From Castellaniella sp. MT123 (GTDB lineage Bacteria > Pseudomonadota > Gammaproteobacteria > Burkholderiales > Burkholderiaceae_B), in contig NZ_CP154879.1 of the NCBI RefSeq assembly GCF_039614765.1, positions 2,604,001 through 2,668,000 of the forward strand: a DNA stretch of 64,000 nucleotides, given 5' to 3'. Shown piece after piece: positions 1 through 7,458 of this stretch (its first letter is position 1; each line of letters opens with the position of its first letter). The notes under the pieces are model-generated. The model was not told where the DNA came from and searched no databases. It saw nothing but the letters and a program-made list of their open reading frames with translations. The position numbers were made by a program, and so were the translations under genes.

Positions 1-1
1 G

Positions 2-895
2 GAGGCCAGCACTAGCTGGGATTTCGAGTACGAGGATGCTACACGGACTGGCGTCAATGGGACATCGATTTCGATTACATCCTTGAATCCGGGCGTTGCG
101 GCCGCTTTCGAGGATCCCGTATGGCGCAACCGACTCATTACCCGCATCGCTCGAGACTACGCATTTTTCCTCTCCAAAGGTTTCGAGATCAAGATCGGCG
201 ACCAGCCGGTCCCTTTGTATAGCTATAACCTTCGTGAGAACGAGAATCTTCAGCCGGTCACCGCTGCCTATATGGACGAAGGTGTTCACGTGCGAATCGT
301 AGCAGGGTTGATCGACGACCTTCCCGACGATATTCCCGCTGAGCTGGCACAGAAGGATGTGGACCGTTTCGGTTGGACGGTTATCTGCAATGACCGGGTC
401 GTTCTTGCGGGCGATAAGACCGAGAGGACGATCTGGGGACGCGACGAATTCAAGATGTGGCACCCGCAATACAACGGCTTTGCAGGGTTCGTGTTTTTCG
501 AAGCCGAAGATCAGCGGCTGTTGCCGTGGACCACAACAAAGCGCGAGGTGGATAGCTCGCACCAGCTGTATCGGAGAACACTAGTCAAGTTAAGGGAAAT
601 TACGGAGGATTTTACGGCTTACACGAATCGGCGGAAGGAAGACCTTGCAGCTGCGAAGGAGGCCGAACGCCCGCGACTGCAAGTCGATGTCTATGCCGCT
701 CGCGATGTAAAGCCGCTGCGTCTACCCGGTGTCGCTACAGCGAAGCCGGCCGATCCATTAGTCAACATCACATTCAAAAGAAAGCTTAGTGAGGTGGATG
801 ATATTCGACGGCACCTCAGCAATCTTGCGATGTCCTATAGGGATGTTGGGATCGCGACCTTCGACTACTACATGGAAGTGGAACTCGGAAAATGA
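2..895 (+). CDS. GHKL-type ATPase subunit, C-terminal part (truncated by window edge)
   Basis: The reading frame is open from the first bases, so the N-terminal part, where an ATP-binding GHKL fold would lie, is outside the window. The visible part aligns by eye with the transducer region of the complete GHKL ATPase at 1959-3650. Shared signposts are FGWTVICNDRVV here and FGWYFVCNDRIV there, then a WHPQYNGF/WHQEYYGF block, then LPWTTTKREVD/LPWDTKKSRID. The last ~90 residues are charged and may form a helix. The stop overlaps the next gene by four bases (ATGA), so the two are translationally coupled. The role is inferred: one of two paralogous ATPase subunits of a MutL/MORC-like module linked to DNA modification. 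A TTG at position 83 is only an internal codon, not a convincing start. Confidence 0.75.
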   Translation, partial: EASTSWDFEYEDATRTGVNGTSISITSLNPGVAAAFEDPVWRNRLITRIARDYAFFLSKGFEIKIGDQPVPLYSYNLRENENLQPVTAAYMDEGVHVRIVAGLIDDLPDDIPAELAQKDVDRFGWTVICNDRVVLAGDKTERTIWGRDEFKMWHPQYNGFAGFVFFEAEDQRLLPWTTTKREVDSSHQLYRRTLVKLREITEDFTAYTNRRKEDLAAAKEAERPRLQVDVYAARDVKPLRLPGVATAKPADPLVNITFKRKLSEVDDIRRHLSNLAMSYRDVGIATFDYYMEVELGK

Positions 896-1923
896 CATCG
901 AGCCCTTCCTTCGAGCGCATCGACTATCAGCTTCGCTACAACAAGCACATTGAACGCAAGATGATCTTCGATCTGCTGTTGCGTGCGCATCAGCACGTTG
1001 GGCTAGTGAATCATCGATACCTTGGTCTGGGATCGATTTGGTTTGCGGATTTCCGTCTCGCCCATCGGATGCTTGGAATGCACAACATGGTGTCGATGGA
1101 ACATGAACCATATGCCGACAGAGCTAGGTTCAATTCGCCATATCACTCCATCGACGTGAAAGGCGGAGATAGTTCTACAACTCTCGATGAGCTCGACTGG
1201 ACCACGCCGACGATCTCGTGGCTGGACTATGATGGCGCGCTCACGCCAAGTATGTCCTCCGATATCCGCAAAGTTCTGGAAAAGTCGCCGGTCGACTCGA
1301 TTCTGATCGTTACCGTAAATGCAGCTCGCGGAACGTATCGTCCGCGCCAGGGACCGGCACAGCGCAAGAGAAGCGATACGGCGCTCGGGCAGATCGAAGC
1401 CATACTAATGCAAGGTGTCGTGTCGCAGCGCTTCGAACCGCCCGAGGGCGGCGCTTCGCATGGTGATGTTCGCGAGGCGGAATTCCCCGAGTTTCTTGCG
1501 GAGGCCATTCTCGCGTTCATGATGCATGTGGCTGGAAATGCCGGTCATACTACAGTGGACAAGAGTAGGGACGCTGTGCCGGTCGTATTTCTGCCGCTAT
1601 TCAACTTTTGCCACAAGGACAACGCCGACATGGTTACGGTCGGTGGAGCTCTCATTCCTTTGGGATCGTCGGTTTGGTTAGAAGGCGTTGCCGCTGACGT
1701 TCTCGTGGATTCAGTCACTGCATTGCCTCGCCACCTCCGCTTGGACCTTGTGCCTCTGACGTTGAAGGAGAAGCTCGTCCTTGATTCGTGCCTGCCGGCT
1801 GCGGAAACGGGCAACTTCGTCGAACGCGCGAAGGCCCACGGAATTTGCATCGATGATGCCGACCTGGTCAAGTACTGGCAGCACTATCACCACTTTCCTG
1901 TGTTTTTCGAAACACCGATTTAA
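892..1923 (+). CDS. Rossmann methyltransferase-like protein of the GHKL module
   Basis: 343 residues. The N-terminal half looks like a class I methyltransferase-type Rossmann fold: a motif I-like YLGLGSIWFADF at about residues 43-54, an acidic motif II-like MVSMEHEP about 25 residues later, and WLDYDGAL in the position of a catalytic or motif IV loop. None of these matches a classical DNA methyltransferase signature (no NPPY or DPPY). The C-terminal half, ending in KYWQHYHHFPVFFE, is not recognised. It is sandwiched between two GHKL ATPases and overlaps the upstream gene by four bases, so it should be part of the same complex or pathway. It could be an active small-molecule or nucleic-acid methyltransferase or a degenerate structural subunit. 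The family placement is inference. Confidence 0.6.
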   Translation: MTSSPSFERIDYQLRYNKHIERKMIFDLLLRAHQHVGLVNHRYLGLGSIWFADFRLAHRMLGMHNMVSMEHEPYADRARFNSPYHSIDVKGGDSSTTLDELDWTTPTISWLDYDGALTPSMSSDIRKVLEKSPVDSILIVTVNAARGTYRPRQGPAQRKRSDTALGQIEAILMQGVVSQRFEPPEGGASHGDVREAEFPEFLAEAILAFMMHVAGNAGHTTVDKSRDAVPVVFLPLFNFCHKDNADMVTVGGALIPLGSSVWLEGVAADVLVDSVTALPRHLRLDLVPLTLKEKLVLDSCLPAAETGNFVERAKAHGICIDDADLVKYWQHYHHFPVFFETPI

Positions 1924-1958
1924 CGCCATCACGTGTACAGTTCCCTCTTTCGTCGAAT

Positions 1959-3650
1959 ATGAGCAAAACCTCCGTCCAAAAAATCGAAGTAAGGCAGGGT
2001 ATTGATCCGGAGTATTTTTCCAATATTCTTACCAAGGATGTAACGACACTCGAATGTATTCTCGAGCTCGTCGACAATGCGGTCGACGCTGCCCGTGACA
2101 AGATACTCCGGCGGAAATCTGTAAAACTGGACCGCTACGGTCTACCCGCTGACTATAGCGGCTATACAATTAACGTGGACTTTGAGGACGGTAGTATCAA
2201 GTTCACGGACGATTGTACCGGCATCCCGGAAAGTACCTTGCGAAATAGTGTGTTCGTTGTTGGAGCAATGTCATCCCATTCGTTCGGTATCGGTCGATTC
2301 GGTATCGGTTTGAAGCGTGCTCTCTTTGGTCTCGGCACAAGGTATATCGTCGAGAGTGATACCGGCAGATTCTCCGCGCGATTGGATCTCGACATCTCTG
2401 AGATGCGCGATTTTAAGGCGCCGCTTATAGCAACGCGTCGCCCAAGCAACGGTAAGTCGCGCATGTTCATTCATGTTACACAGCTACATGAACGTGTAAA
2501 GAGCGAGATCAAACAGGCTGGTTGGGATGGTTCGATTTCCAAGCAACTTTCCAGGCGCTATGGCCTGCTTATTGACAAGGGTTTCCAAATTAGAGTCAAT
2601 GGTAATTCGATTTCGCGATTTGGCCCCGGGCTGCGCGATATCGCAGGGGTAAAGCGGAAGTCAAGCGACGTTCGCTTGGTCGATGGCGTGGATGTATATA
2701 TCGACTCCGGCATGCATGAGGACTATCGACTAACGTCCGAGGCTGACCATAGAACGAAAGCCAATGCGTCTTTAACGGATCAGTTCGGTTGGTATTTTGT
2801 TTGCAATGATCGTATTGTTGAAGTCGCAACCCGAGAGAATAGTCTTGGGTGGACTGCTCGTTGGCATCAGGAATACTACGGTTTCGTCGGGTGGGTGAGA
2901 TTCGTTGCGAGGAATCCGCAGAACCTGCCCTGGGATACGAAAAAATCACGGATTGATCCGTATTCCACAGTCTTTATGGCGATAAGCGAACGATTGCAAT
3001 CCTTCGCGGAGCACTACAAGAAGCAGAATAAGAAAGAGCGCATCTCGCCGTCCGGGGGTGACAGGAATTCGCCTCCCTCCAATGAGCCGAACGATAGGCC
3101 TGTTAGGGGGGCGACCGATAAACCCGTCAAGTCTACCCCGAAGCCATTGCCCCCCCACTCTCACAACGAGAATTGGAAAACGCTACTACCGCCGCTAGGA
3201 TTCGAAGTCAAGAATCGGAAGCTTGCAGCCTTGGTCTTTGAAGCCGAGCAACTAAGCCTAACGCACTGCTATGCGGGCTCGATGCTCTTGCGTACTCTCA
3301 TGGAGATGGCTTTGTTGGCACACTTGCGTTCTCGGCGCAAGCTTGGCCAAGTTATCGAGGAGGTGCGGAAGAAGGCGAATGATTCGACGGAGAAATCCGA
3401 GACAGCGGCCACTTCGATGGATCGATTGACGCTCAATGAGATGTTGCGCTGGCTAGCAAACAATGAAATCTACTTCCCGGAGGAGGTGCGCAGGGACTGC
3501 GTGTTCTCACGCAAGAAATTCGCCACCAACCTCAAGGAATTGAATGGCATTGTGCACGACGGGGATCTAACCAACAGCGATAAATTGCGCTCGGCCCGAG
3601 ACGACGCCATGCCGCTTCTCGAGTTTCTGTTGGCTAGTTTTGCTGGCTGA
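1959..3650 (+). CDS. GHKL (MutL/MORC-like) ATPase with C-terminal helical domain
   Basis: 563 residues. The GHKL ATP-binding motifs are visible: N-box ELVDNAVDA (Glu36, Asn40), a DDCTGIP G1-like box (Asp84, Gly88) and the G2 glycine loop FGIGRFGIG (110-117). A transducer-like domain follows to about residue 350, including FGWYFVCNDRIV and LPWDTKKSRID, shared with the truncated neighbour at 2-895. A polar proline-rich linker (about 360-400) leads into a helical C-terminal domain containing RTLMEMALLAHL and LNGIVHDG. That domain resembles DUF4145/HEPN-like helical bundles, but the canonical R-x4-6-H pair is not clear. Known bacterial relatives sit in predicted restriction systems next to DNA methyltransferases and Vsr nucleases, as here. 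Start: ATG after a 35-base gap with a weak ribosome site. Codon usage is more AT-rich than the core genes. Confidence 0.8.
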   Translation: MSKTSVQKIEVRQGIDPEYFSNILTKDVTTLECILELVDNAVDAARDKILRRKSVKLDRYGLPADYSGYTINVDFEDGSIKFTDDCTGIPESTLRNSVFVVGAMSSHSFGIGRFGIGLKRALFGLGTRYIVESDTGRFSARLDLDISEMRDFKAPLIATRRPSNGKSRMFIHVTQLHERVKSEIKQAGWDGSISKQLSRRYGLLIDKGFQIRVNGNSISRFGPGLRDIAGVKRKSSDVRLVDGVDVYIDSGMHEDYRLTSEADHRTKANASLTDQFGWYFVCNDRIVEVATRENSLGWTARWHQEYYGFVGWVRFVARNPQNLPWDTKKSRIDPYSTVFMAISERLQSFAEHYKKQNKKERISPSGGDRNSPPSNEPNDRPVRGATDKPVKSTPKPLPPHSHNENWKTLLPPLGFEVKNRKLAALVFEAEQLSLTHCYAGSMLLRTLMEMALLAHLRSRRKLGQVIEEVRKKANDSTEKSETAATSMDRLTLNEMLRWLANNEIYFPEEVRRDCVFSRKKFATNLKELNGIVHDGDLTNSDKLRSARDDAMPLLEFLLASFAG

Positions 3651-3699
3651 CAAGTCGATTGTTGGCGCCCCTTGGCTCCGATGCGGCTTGTGATTGGGT

Positions 3700-3723
3700 G
3701 CAGCACTGCTAGCGGAGTGCTGC
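3700..3723. terminator. Hairpin between convergent GHKL and methyltransferase genes
   Basis: An 8-bp perfect inverted repeat (GCAGCACT/AGTGCTGC) with an 8-base loop lies between the two convergent genes and overlaps the methyltransferase stop codon. No T-run follows on either strand, so intrinsic termination is only a possibility. Confidence 0.4.
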
Positions 3724-4830
3724 ATAAAGCTTGGACAAGATCGCTTCCGCTATGATCGGACTCACGCTGTTGCCGATTTGGCGGAAAGCGTGCCACTTCG
3801 TCGCATCGAATTGAAACCAGTCCGGAAATCCTTGCAGGCGGGCAGCTTCGCGCGGGCAGATCACCCGCGGGTCGCTCGGGTGAATTGGACGAACCGCCTG
3901 ATAGCTTCCGCGTTCCGGTCCCGTGCCGGCGCGCAGCGTCGGGCAATAGCCGTCGGGGTTCAATCGCACGCTCTTTGAGACATCGTCCTGCATGCCGACC
4001 GCGAGCTTGTTGAAGCGCTTCACCGTTTGAGGTGTGTGAATCGTCGACAGGAAACCGGATACGATGCGTTTGCTTTGGAGCAATTTGATCGACTCTTCGT
4101 GTCCCACCCCTGTCGGAATGCAGTCGTGAAGTCTCGTCCCGAAATGGGTCGAACTTGATGCGCGCACCTCCCTTCGTCCGTCGCCGCTATCCCACGTGGC
4201 TCCAAGGTTGGGTATTCCCAACAGGGCGTGCGACACGCGAACGTCCTCGGTGTCTTGATCCGCTGCGAAATCGTCCTTCGACAGAGGGCGCACGCGCTCG
4301 GGATCGTAGCCGATGAAGAACATGCGGGTACGGGTAGTGGGCGCGCCGTACTCGTTGGCCTTAACTTTGATGGGATCGAGCAGCACGTAGTTGTCGGGTA
4401 CCAACGCAAGAGCGCTATTGCGCACCTCATCGTTTCGTTCGTGGAGGATGCCCGGAACGTTTTCGGCTAAGAAGAAGGCGGGTCGCATGTCTCTCACCAA
4501 CTCGAAGAATGTGCTAAACAACGAGTTGCGCGGATCGCCTGCCGCACGTTTCCCGATGGAGCTAAAACCCTGGCAGGGCGGCCCCCCAATGAGACCCGTG
4601 AGTCCCCCCATCTTCAAGCCGGCTTCCTTCAACAAGTCCACGCCGGGTACTTGCGTGATGTCTTTGTTGATCGCTTTGGTCTTGGGGAAGTTCAAGTGGT
4701 GTGCGGCAATCGCGTGCTTGTCGATTTCTACGGCCGCAGCCACGTTAAAGCCGGTACGCGCCGCACCAAGGCTGAGTCCGCCGACACCGGCAAAGACATC
4801 AATTACGCTGGGGACCGACTTTCTTGGCAT
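3709..4830 (-). CDS. DNA (cytosine-5-)-methyltransferase
   Basis: 373 residues, a usual length for a type II C5-cytosine methyltransferase. Motif I is DVFAGVGGLSLG (11-22). Motif IV is GPPCQGFSS with catalytic Cys86. Motif VI is AENVPG. The C-terminal motifs IX-X read RLQGFPDWF and QIGNSVSP. It transfers a methyl group from S-adenosylmethionine to carbon 5 of cytosine within a recognition sequence that cannot be read from the protein. It converges on the GHKL operon and is divergent from vsr, the usual partner that repairs T:G mismatches arising from 5-methylcytosine deamination. Start: ATG followed directly by the motif I strand; the ribosome site is weak. It may protect host DNA from a nuclease of the island. 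Confidence 0.95.
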   Translation of the reverse strand: MPRKSVPSVIDVFAGVGGLSLGAARTGFNVAAAVEIDKHAIAAHHLNFPKTKAINKDITQVPGVDLLKEAGLKMGGLTGLIGGPPCQGFSSIGKRAAGDPRNSLFSTFFELVRDMRPAFFLAENVPGILHERNDEVRNSALALVPDNYVLLDPIKVKANEYGAPTTRTRMFFIGYDPERVRPLSKDDFAADQDTEDVRVSHALLGIPNLGATWDSGDGRREVRASSSTHFGTRLHDCIPTGVGHEESIKLLQSKRIVSGFLSTIHTPQTVKRFNKLAVGMQDDVSKSVRLNPDGYCPTLRAGTGPERGSYQAVRPIHPSDPRVICPREAARLQGFPDWFQFDATKWHAFRQIGNSVSPIIAEAILSKLYAALR

Positions 4831-4957
4831 CGTCTATGCTACGTTCTATAAGTGATCGGATTTTAGCGTGCTGAAGAGAAATAGTCGATCGGAGATTTTC
4901 ACCTTTTTACTCAGATCGACTGAGAGGCCTTATAAATCGGCCAAGAGAGGCAACAAA

Positions 4958-5362
4958 ATGGACAGGCTTACTCCGGATCGCCGAAGTCGTCTGATGTCCC
5001 GCATACGCAGCAAGGATACGAAGCCTGAAGTCGAGGTGCGATCAACCTTGCACAGAATGGGGTATCGGTACGTGCTCCACAAGCGTGGACTTCCCGGTAC
5101 TCCTGATCTGGTATTTCCGGCACGAAGGAAGGTTCTTTTTGTTCATGGGTGCTACTGGCACGGGCACACATGCAAGTACGGCAAGGCTCAATCGAAAAGC
5201 AATGTCGAATTTTGGCACAAGAAGATGGATGCTAACCGTCGTCGCGACCGTCGCAACGCGCGCAAGCTACGTGCCGCAGGATGGAGCGTTGCGACGGTTT
5301 GGGAGTGCCAAGTTAAGCAGGGCAAGTGGCTAGATCGGATTGTTCTGTTTCTTGAAGGTTGA
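4958..5362 (+). CDS. vsr: Very short patch repair (Vsr) DNA mismatch endonuclease
   Basis: 134 residues from the ATG at 4958, which follows an AGAGAGG ribosome site. An in-frame upstream ATG at 4868 would add 30 residues unlike the family and lacks such a site. Family features match E. coli Vsr almost position for position: catalytic Asp50 in PGTPDLVFP, the FVHGCYWHGHTC block (His63, Cys65, His68, His70, Cys72), the FWHKKMDANRRRD segment and Cys117 in VWEC for zinc binding. It nicks 5' of the T in T:G mismatches left by deamination of 5-methylcytosine, so it should serve the adjacent methyltransferase. It ends 32 bases before the end of the liu operon, marking the island's inner boundary. Confidence 0.95.
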   Translation: MDRLTPDRRSRLMSRIRSKDTKPEVEVRSTLHRMGYRYVLHKRGLPGTPDLVFPARRKVLFVHGCYWHGHTCKYGKAQSKSNVEFWHKKMDANRRRDRRNARKLRAAGWSVATVWECQVKQGKWLDRIVLFLEG

Positions 5363-5394
5363 CTGGGCCCTGTAGTAATCCCCAAGCTCATTCA

Positions 5395-7458
5395 TCACTT
5401 CGCCGCCTCCAGCGCGATCAGCGTCACGCCTTCGGTGACCTGGTCACCTACCGCATAGAACACCTCTTGCACGACGCCGTCGTGCGGCGCCTCGATGGTG
5501 TGTTCCATTTTCATGGCTTCCATGACGACCAGGGCCTGGCCCTGCTTGACCACGTCCCCCGTGGCGACCGCCACGGACAGGATCTTGCCGGGCATGGGGG
5601 CGGTCAGGCCGCCGCCGGCATCGTCGGCGTCGGCGCGGGCCAGCGCGATCGGGTCGCGCCATTCCAATGTGCTGCGCCGGCCGTCGGTGAAGATGTCCAG
5701 ACGCAGGCCCTGCAGGTAGACCTCGCCCCGGATCTCGCGATCCGCTAGCTGTATGCGCAGGTGCCGGGGGTGCTGTGCATCCGCCTGCCAGCTCAGGGGC
5801 TGAAAATCCCCCTGGTCGACGGCTAGAGACCAGGCTGCTCCGTCGCGGCGCAGGCGGATGTGCCGTTCGCCTTGTGCGTCCTGCAGGGGCAGGATGCGCT
5901 CATAGACGCCGCCGATACGCCAACCATCCACCTGCCGCCAAGGGCTTGCTGGATGCCGGGCAGCGGTTTCTGGCCGCGCGGCGCCACTGCCGGAGACCGC
6001 ATGGCTACAGTCGCCTGAGCCATCCAGGCCGCTGTGGCGCAGCACCGCGACGGCCGCCAGCGCCAGCACGGCGTCCGCGGCGGCCTGCGCGGGTGGAAAC
6101 AGTCGCTCGTGTTCCCGTGGGATCAGCCCCGTATCCAGATCGGCCGTCGTGAAGGCCGGGTCGTCCATCAACCGGGCGAGAAAGGCGATGTTGGTGTGCA
6201 GGCCGGTCGCCCGTACGGCCCCCAGGGCGTGCAGCATGCGACGGCGCGCCTGCTCGCGATCCGCCCCATGGACGATCAGCTTGGCGATCATGGGGTCGTA
6301 ATAGGGTGTGATCATGTCGCCTTCGCGCACGCCGCCGTCCACGCGCACGGCGCCGGCCTGGAAGGCGACATGAGGCGGCCATTGCAGAATGTCCAGGTGG
6401 CCGATGCTGGGCAGGAAATCCTTGTCCGGATTTTCCGCATAGACGCGGGCCTCGATGGCGTGGCCCTGGATGCGCAGCTGATCCTGGCGCAGCGGCAGCG
6501 GTTCGCCGGCGGCCACGCGCAGCTGCCATTCCACCAGGTCCTGGCCGGTGATGGCTTCGGTAACCGGGTGCTCGACCTGCAGGCGGGTGTTCATTTCCAT
6601 GAAGTAGAAACGTCCGTCCGGCTCGGCGATGAATTCCACGGTGCCCGCGCCCACGTATCCCACGGCCTGGGCAGCCGCGACGGCCGCCTGGCCCATGGCC
6701 TGACGGCGTTCCAGCGTCATGCCGGGCGCGGGCGCTTCCTCGATGACCTTCTGGAATCGCCGTTGCACCGAGCAGTCGCGCTCGAACAGGTGCACGCACT
6801 GCCCCTGGGTATCGGCGAAGACCTGGATTTCGATGTGGCGGGGTTTCAGCAGATAGCGTTCGACCAGCACCTGAGGATTGCCGAAGCTGCTGGCCGCCTC
6901 GCGCTGGCAGGATGCCAGGGCGGACGGAAATTCTTCGTCGGACTCGACGATGCGCATGCCCTTGCCGCCGCCGCCCGCGCTGGCCTTGATGAGCACGGGG
7001 TAGCCGATGGTGCGCGCCTGGTCCTGCAGGAAATCGGGCTCCTGGCGATCGCCGTAGTAGCCGGGGACCAGCGGCACGTCGGCGCCCGCCATCAAGGTCT
7101 TGGCGGCTGATTTGCTGCCCATGGCGGCGATGGCGCGGGCGGGCGGGCCGATGAAAACCAGGCCCGCGTCTTCGCAAGCCTGGGCGAAGTCCGCGTTTTC
7201 CGACAGGAAGCCGTAGCCCGGATGGATGGCCTGCGCCCCGGTGCGGCGGGCCGCGTCCAGGATGGCGTCGGCGCGCAGGTAGCTGGATTTCGGTTCCGCG
7301 CCGCCGATGGGCACGGCCAGGTCGCAGGCCTGTACGTGGCGGGCCTGGGCGTCGGCCTCGGAATAGACGGCAACGGTGCGGATGCCCAGGCGGCGGGCGG
7401 TGGCGGCGATGCGGCAGGCGATTTCGCCTCGGTTGGCGATCAGAATCGTGTCGAACAT
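5395..7458 (-). CDS. liuD: Methylcrotonoyl-CoA carboxylase biotin-carrying alpha subunit
   Basis: 687 residues from the ATG at 7458, preceded by AAGGA; the frame stays open further upstream but that part overlaps liuB. The N-terminal biotin carboxylase starts FDTILIANRGEIACRIA. An ATP-grasp core follows with the glycine loop KASAGGGGKGM and the substrate segment MNTRLQVEHPVTE. A middle linker domain comes next, and then a C-terminal biotinyl domain with EAMKMEHT, the biotinylated lysine being Lys650. It carboxylates biotin using ATP and bicarbonate and, with the beta subunit, converts 3-methylcrotonyl-CoA to 3-methylglutaconyl-CoA in leucine catabolism. It is the last gene of the liu operon, 16 bases after liuB. 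Pairing with liuB in an isovaleryl-CoA dehydrogenase operon favours this over acetyl- or propionyl-CoA carboxylase. Confidence 0.93.
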   Translation of the reverse strand: MFDTILIANRGEIACRIAATARRLGIRTVAVYSEADAQARHVQACDLAVPIGGAEPKSSYLRADAILDAARRTGAQAIHPGYGFLSENADFAQACEDAGLVFIGPPARAIAAMGSKSAAKTLMAGADVPLVPGYYGDRQEPDFLQDQARTIGYPVLIKASAGGGGKGMRIVESDEEFPSALASCQREAASSFGNPQVLVERYLLKPRHIEIQVFADTQGQCVHLFERDCSVQRRFQKVIEEAPAPGMTLERRQAMGQAAVAAAQAVGYVGAGTVEFIAEPDGRFYFMEMNTRLQVEHPVTEAITGQDLVEWQLRVAAGEPLPLRQDQLRIQGHAIEARVYAENPDKDFLPSIGHLDILQWPPHVAFQAGAVRVDGGVREGDMITPYYDPMIAKLIVHGADREQARRRMLHALGAVRATGLHTNIAFLARLMDDPAFTTADLDTGLIPREHERLFPPAQAAADAVLALAAVAVLRHSGLDGSGDCSHAVSGSGAARPETAARHPASPWRQVDGWRIGGVYERILPLQDAQGERHIRLRRDGAAWSLAVDQGDFQPLSWQADAQHPRHLRIQLADREIRGEVYLQGLRLDIFTDGRRSTLEWRDPIALARADADDAGGGLTAPMPGKILSVAVATGDVVKQGQALVVMEAMKMEHTIEAPHDGVVQEVFYAVGDQVTEGVTLIALEAAK

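Follow-up and report, generated by a model that had tools for sequence, protein, structure and literature searches.

The occurrence of MORC and paraMORC proteins in prokaryotic restriction-modification (R-M) neighborhoods, together with cytosine methylases and Vsr, was predicted in 2008 (Iyer, Abhiman and Aravind, PMC2292703). There, MORCs are defined by an S5-fold domain with the motif GhXhhpXXRhl and are proposed to loop DNA between recognition and cleavage sites. A similar setting, with a C5 methyltransferase, a GHKL protein, a second subunit, Vsr and HNH_2 nucleases nearby, appears in the report on the HEF_HK/Response_reg_2 proteins (Bellieny-Rabelo et al. 2021, PMC8011034). Here, we analyzed a 64,000-nucleotide stretch of the genome of Castellaniella sp. 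MT123 (the window; positions 2604001-2668000 of a genome consisting of one 3.37 Mb contig), and found that a MORC-type ATPase (ATPase 1) and a methyltransferase-fold protein (MT35) form a conserved pair, which in the window belongs to a confirmed five-gene cluster with a second such ATPase (ATPase 2), a C5-cytosine DNA methyltransferase (C5) and Vsr. A GHKL-S5 ATPase with the MORC motif, and neighboring cytosine methylase and Vsr genes, are what this cluster has in common with the MORC loci of the 2008 study (PMC2292703). The features, in window positions, are:

1..895 (window frame 2-895), plus strand: ATPase 1, a prokaryotic MORC-type GHKL-S5 ATPase of 451 amino acids (aa), of which the last 297 are in the window; the full gene, L002:15540-16895 in the extracted locus L002, begins 460 bp before the left edge
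892..1923, plus strand: MT35, PF20553 methyltransferase-fold subunit and partner of ATPase 1 (Pfam E = 5.5e-66)
1959..3650, plus strand: ATPase 2, second MORC-type GHKL-S5 ATPase (HATPase_c_3, E = 1.9e-9)
3709..4830, minus strand: C5-cytosine DNA methyltransferase, the modification gene (E = 2.1e-56)
4958..5362, plus strand: Vsr mismatch endonuclease (PF03852, E = 2.8e-28), in a frame open from GTG 4868
1..5407: part of the island that lies in the window; the whole island is 7,458 bp (genome 2601950-2609407)

The original prediction for this DNA had placed two GHKL ATPases around a methyltransferase-like gene, next to a convergent cytosine-5 methyltransferase and a divergent Vsr, and all of these were present. 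The reading frames of ATPase 1 and MT35 overlap by 4 nt and ATPase 2 begins 35 nt after MT35; the C5 gene is convergent with ATPase 2 and Vsr is divergent from C5. The proposal that this is probably a restriction-type system, and one that is not well described, was also supported. We consider, with a probability of roughly 0.55, that the cluster represents a mobile R-M-like defense island in which the ATPase 1-MT35 pair would be a restriction-type effector keyed to the DNA mark of its partner.

The evidence for the pair comes from a survey in which relatives of ATPase 1 were aligned (A3) and the alignment, blind to MT35, was run against a collection of 84,980 species and against viral contigs. 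A total of 148 loci were assembled, comprising the best 80 of 253 confirmed stretches from the species collection, 59 loci from viral contigs and nine earlier loci (L001 and L003-L010, which were short or duplicate, were left out). Counts over these loci are not independent because some appear to be repeats (L014/L032, L016/L081, L056/L103) and many are similar prophages. An MT35 profile match was present in 145 of the 148, and the two genes stood in tandem in 142, with a median gap of -4 nt and a gap of 0 or less in 131. C5 was located within 6 kb in 129/148 loci and Vsr in 57/148, the Castellaniella locus itself being scored without either since L002 ends before both genes. In the reverse direction, PF20553 was found in five of 398 genomes of the phylum, and ATPase 1 was adjacent in all five (L004-L006, L008 and the genome studied here); the pair also accompanied C5 in G407, a member of the same family. 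A scan of the viral contigs with MT35 alone returned 67 stretches, none of which was confirmed.

Linkage of C5 exceeded chance. Specifically, at the 75 genome loci with the pair, 68 C5 open reading frames (ORFs) were within 3 kb (406 kb in total) versus two at 3-9 kb (665 kb), making them 56-fold denser close to the pair, while Vsr ORFs numbered 41 and five in the same two zones. The original prediction had called for gene order to be compared in other genomes and had named unlinked genes as the result that would speak against it; linkage of the pair proved strong. We also correlated protein distances across 81 non-redundant loci of the 125 with ATPase 1, MT35 and C5. ATPase 1 and MT35 distances correlated at 0.87; C5 gave 0.34 with ATPase 1 and 0.30 with MT35. 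The highest values from 500 shuffles were 0.08, 0.11 and 0.12, respectively. The difference between the first value and the other two suggests that the pair stays together and that C5 is exchanged more freely. The ATPase 1-MT35 pair is the conserved core of these loci. Two departures from the usual layout were seen: in L070, two pairs lie on opposite strands with one C5 between them, and in L024 (9944-11470) a single ORF runs from ATPase 1 into the last ~60 residues of MT35, which is probably an internal deletion and not a functional fusion.

Both ATPases are of MORC type, as the original prediction had it, based on the S5 motif for both and on the fold match for ATPase 2. They score above the HATPase_c_3 cut-off (E = 1.2e-8 for ATPase 1) and share 26% identity over 404 columns (E = 4e-37). 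The MORC S5-domain motif reads GWTVICNDRVV in ATPase 1 (residue 278), and was found in 139/140 ATPase 1 proteins and in ATPase 2, versus 5/516 control ORFs of 350-650 aa. Positions D49, N50, D85, G89, G120, G122 and K124 of GHKL motifs I-III were retained in 140/140 ATPase 1 proteins. In searches of PDB sequences, the sole match to the ATPase 1 profile was MORC3 (E = 0.053). The predicted model of ATPase 2 has a GHKL-S5 region (residues 1-362), a low-confidence linker and an all-helical C-terminal domain (418-560), and its best solved match was MORC3 (6o1e; Z = 22.1, root-mean-square deviation 3.5, 297 aligned residues). The top 11 rows comprised ten MORC2/3/4 chains and one SMCHD1 (Z = 20.8-22.1), with the first Hsp90 at Z = 20.2, a MORC lead of ~2 Z; the closest MORCs were MORC3 and MORC2.

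ATPase 2 is an optional addition to the pair. Genes resembling it were present in just six of the 139 scan loci (L019-L157), besides the window locus. Thus, of the proposed variant with two ATPases around a methyltransferase-like subunit, the tandem of ATPase 1 and MT35 stands, whereas the second ATPase is not a regular member. Additionally, a second cassette type was observed in three viral contigs (L167, L168, L169), in which C5 precedes a MORC protein of 571-624 aa that resembles ATPase 2, with neither ATPase 1 nor MT35.

MT35 carries the Pfam label of a putative O-methyltransferase (PF20553). Its AlphaFold2 model, built from 95 sequences, reached a predicted local distance difference test score of 91.2 and a predicted template modeling score of 0.91, and places the protein in the class I S-adenosylmethionine-dependent methyltransferase fold. 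In the structure comparison, 986 of 1000 chains had Z of at least 8, with methyltransferases on top, and a classical nuclease fold was ruled out on the same model. The best VIA-align match was the tRNA (G26) methyltransferase Trm1 (3axs; Z = 15.1, root-mean-square deviation 3.9, 221 aligned residues), although identity was only ~11% over the alignment and no sequence-profile match to Trm1 was seen at E ≤ 1. Four Trm1 entries headed the ranking (Z = 14.1-15.1) and an RsmD-like enzyme came next (Z = 13.9), so that most of the Trm1 lead is within the tie margin. The MT35 profile had a single match among PDB sequences, a porin at E = 0.81. Residues R22, Y43, W110 and E293 were invariant in 140/140 proteins, as was an acid at position 70, and D112 was retained in 139/140 and G47 in 137/140. 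In the model, the conserved sites fall in the loop after strand 42-46 (G47), at the end of strand 65-70 (E70), in strand 107-116 (W110, D112, Y113) and at T141. These are the places where the cofactor and catalytic motifs (motif IV) of the class I fold are expected. Conservation of such positions argues against a dead remnant.

The resemblance to a tRNA methyltransferase raises the alternative of abortive infection, in which the clamp would sense unmarked DNA and release a toxic effector. That effector might be MT35, with tRNA as its target, or else the C-terminal helical domain of ATPase 2. The latter protein matches PADLOC PD-Lambda-5_A over residues 351-560 (E = 8.2e-6; a partial match, not one of the whole protein), a system that its authors call compacted R-M plus abortive infection (RM+Abi) (PMC9519451), and HEPN domains of the Ymh family are reported as fusions to paraMORC C-termini in R-M loci (PMC3710099). 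However, Trm1 leads the RsmD-like enzyme by only ~1 Z, ATPase 2-like proteins are infrequent in the scan, and the C-terminal domain had no Pfam match at E ≤ 1. That domain had a single match, at E = 0.1, among PDB sequences, and no HEPN protein was listed among the structure rows, for which the query was the whole model and not the helical domain alone. We regard abortive infection as unlikely, and its odds overlap with those of the mark-keyed effector.

The C5 gene supplies the DNA methyltransferase expected of a type II R-M system, and is the only PF00145 match in the genome; its closest solved chain by sequence was 3g7u (E = 5.1e-115). Vsr homology starts at ATG 4958, the likely start, although the listed ORF begins at GTG 4868, and the protein retains the PD and HGCxWH core when aligned to its E. 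coli counterpart (1cw0). Vsr was the only nuclease recognized in the island, where other proteins could hold an unrecognized activity and the ORF L002:15055-15441 was outside the search.

The smallest versions of the system were in prophages and phages. The ATPase 1-MT35 tandem and a convergent C5 formed the cargo that 21 P2-like prophage loci carry between the portal gene and gpA (neighbor families were named from one representative each). The portal gene was 370-457 bp from ATPase 1 and C5 was 28-713 bp from gpA; in seven loci (L109, L110, L112, L113, L114, L117, L151) the latter gap was 28-81 bp, with no room for another gene, and the longest (713 bp) could accommodate a small one. In E. 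coli EC21 (L166, 6975-10490), an ATP-binding protein, an O-methyltransferase and a DNA cytosine methyltransferase are annotated between P2-type genes, and this cassette occurs, at 99% or more, in 45/5,426 complete E. coli genomes. In the Pseudomonas filamentous phage PfAC20 (L011, 280-3711), ATPase 1, MT35 and C5 are in tandem, the pair being directly upstream of a C5 that was reported to belong to an incomplete R-M system (PMC11878078). No nuclease was recognized in the compact cassettes of the P2-like prophages, EC21 or PfAC20. The portal-side locus of P2 is treated as a defense hotspot (PMC9519451), and antiviral systems are reported at prophage hotspots (PMC9122126).

The mechanism that we propose for an effector keyed to a mark starts from C5, which, judging from its family, would mark host DNA. 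ATPase 1 and MT35 would be one two-subunit machine, the restriction-type arm, of which the MORC-type ATPase would be expected to dimerize on ATP and close around DNA. MT35 would then either recognize unmarked sites or chemically modify the trapped nucleic acid, and host DNA would be spared because its own sites carry the mark. As no nuclease was recognized in the smallest versions, the block would probably be exerted by clamping, by modification or by a recruited host nuclease. Vsr would repair T:G mismatches arising from deaminated 5-methylcytosine, limiting mutation at these sites, and ATPase 2 would be an optional extra arm, also of MORC type, with its helical C-terminal domain perhaps serving as a back-up effector.

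More tentatively, and with odds that we place well below even, restriction might be nuclease-free throughout, with a MORC clamp and a Trm1-like subunit sensing the absence of the host mark and silencing foreign DNA. Any mark might then serve (5-methylcytosine, N4/N6 methylation, phosphorothioation or DISARM), and silencing might proceed by entrapment or covalent modification; if true, this would be a prokaryotic counterpart of eukaryotic MORC-mediated silencing. Other modification systems were found at the pair, which counts in favor of the mark-keyed effector. In L098, genes for DndC, DndD/PbeC and a DndE-HerA-like protein directly precede it and a YhcG nuclease follows; in L013, a Microvirga plasmid, it lies between an MmeI-type gene and DISARM drmA; and N4/N6 methyltransferases are at the pair in L017, L026 and L077.

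Several observations weigh against an effector keyed to a linked mark. The Dnd and DISARM associations are from one locus each, and MT35 is split into two ORFs in one of the 21 P2-like loci (L127). Rapid evolution of recognition domains, or having taken the nearest C5 at each locus, might also explain the low correlation with C5, and no sharp signal of a specificity region co-varying with C5 was detected in MT35 or ATPase 1 of close relatives whose C5 genes differ. Canonical GHKL proteins use a catalytic Glu as the general base. By alignment, this position is Asp in 140/140 ATPase 1 proteins, and Glu in ATPase 2. The published MORC family motif does not require that Glu (PMC2292703). Moreover, C5 was absent within 6 kb at 19/148 loci, including L012 (C5 at 6.6 kb) and L002 (cut), and for 12 of the 19 (L024, L051, L059-L061, L063, L064, L066, L068, L083, L090, L115) the few neighbors run against Pfam included no modification gene, these being nine from L051, L059, L060, L061, L066 and L083 plus one from L115. 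Six of the 12 are cyanobacterial (one without MT35), three (L068, L090, L115) are cut by contig ends and L024 is degenerate. Dependence on a linked mark is thus not strict. Finally, an HNH_2-type neighbor cluster occurs at 10 loci and a type II restriction endonuclease cluster at seven (one representative of each was checked, the latter with PADLOC), so that where the pair has a nuclease of its own it may be an accessory.

Loci with no visible modification gene bear on a further alternative, according to which MT35 adds to the host mark as a further enzyme that modifies DNA or RNA, with ATPase 1 opening the DNA and no attack on foreign DNA. The active-looking methyltransferase fold of the model, with nucleic-acid methyltransferases (Trm1, RsmD-like) as best matches, and the conserved cofactor and motif-IV positions would fit such a role. 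It is at odds with the position of pairs at the P2 and prophage hotspots for defense cited above, inside a DISARM locus (L013) and beside Dnd genes (L098), and we consider it quite improbable. At the cyanobacterial loci L059, L060, L061, L063 and L066, the tested neighbors include GH31, nonribosomal peptide synthetase, ABC-transporter and WD40-kinase genes.

The nuclease neighbors instead favor an ATP-dependent accessory role in ordinary type II restriction, in which the pair would loop the DNA for a separate nuclease or load it, be it HNH_2, a type II restriction endonuclease, Vsr or a host enzyme. This has a precedent in the looping proposal for MORCs (PMC2292703), and the frequency of Vsr near the pair, a PLD-SNF2 helicase that adjoins it in L115 and the YhcG nuclease of L098 point the same way. 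On the other hand, Vsr was the sole nuclease recognized on the window island, the compact cassettes showed none, and the nucleases elsewhere belong to unrelated families, whereas MT35 is nearly universal. An accessory role thus seems rather unlikely to us, its odds overlapping those of the mark-keyed effector where a host nuclease is recruited. Two neighbor families also recurred, c305 (L012, L040, L042, L057, L101, L102) and c241 (L020, L046, L050, L070, L072, L146); for the single representative of each that was checked, neither Pfam nor PADLOC gave a match, and both are candidate nucleases or regulators of a new type.

The cluster sits on a mobile island. In G693, a genome of the same species, the flanks are separated by only 8 bp, which makes the 7,458 bp extra in Castellaniella sp. 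MT123, and the G+C content from ATPase 1 to Vsr is 54% versus 65% in the surroundings. No MT35 match was found in any of eight other genomes of the genus, and no tRNA genes were found in the window. Left of ATPase 1, on the same island and outside the window, are a RES-domain toxin and an Xre/MbcA/ParS antitoxin (L002:14003-14940), which lie 600-1537 bp upstream of where ATPase 1 begins; in G401, of the same genus, DNA matching this toxin-antitoxin region adjoins the right flank and the MORC genes are absent. An MFS-like gene also lies to the left and a biotin-carboxylase-like gene to the right (labels assigned by reading, with no search). The chromosomal site is a variable locus. In G398, other genes are located between the same flanks (C12:59501-64800; L200), one being ABC-transporter-like by reading. 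The suspected truncation at the left edge was true of the window, as ATPase 1 shows, but the further members suggested beyond it were not recognized and a larger system on that side was rejected, the next recognized genes being the RES/Xre pair and the MFS-like gene, with a small intervening minus-strand ORF (L002:15055-15441) outside the search.

The role of prokaryotic MORCs has only been predicted since 2008 (PMC2292703), and one MORC group now has a fixed partner, with which it is indicated to travel as a unit while the adjoining DNA-marking gene changes. The three-gene version of ~3.5 kb in E. coli prophages is testable in a laboratory strain, and the pair is suggested as a partner for methyltransferases labeled orphan, such as the PfAC20 C5.

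Among described systems, the proposed kinship to Mza, which also has a MutL-like GHKL ATPase, did not hold: MzaB scores were 14.3 and 23.2 bits versus a cut-off of 850, and neither Z1 (PF10593) nor AIPR (PF10592) had a match in the whole genome. HEF_HK/Response_reg_2 was also rejected as the identity of ATPase 1 and MT35. The Castellaniella genome had no PF19192 match, and at four Response_reg_2 loci neither the ATPase 1 nor the MT35 profile matched the ~590-aa ORFs or their ~1000-aa neighbors (presumed HEF_HK); the two systems occupy the same slot with other families. In Shedu VcSduA, of the paraMORC3 type, a GHKL domain is likewise proposed to control a defense effector, but there the effector is a fused DUF4263 nuclease (PMC12137116), and none was recognized in the window cluster. 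PD-Lambda-5 resembles ATPase 2 in its C-terminal region (PMC9519451). ATPase 1 and MT35 had no match in PADLOC-DB, in this genome and EC21 alike, and their PHROGs families (phrog_20521, phrog_19983) are listed as of unknown function. Our literature search found no paper that names PF20553/Methyltransf_35 or that treats GHKL, DISARM and phosphorothioate together, and no description of the pair in the literature searched, which lay mostly outside subscription journals. A minority of the MORC loci of Iyer et al. have no helicases, as here, and the text available to us ties no methyltransferase-fold partner to the ATPase, although the uncharacterized domains X1-X3 of their Figure 2 may include it, unnamed (PMC2292703). 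MORC with C5 and Vsr is an old prediction, whereas its partnership with MT35 looks undescribed.

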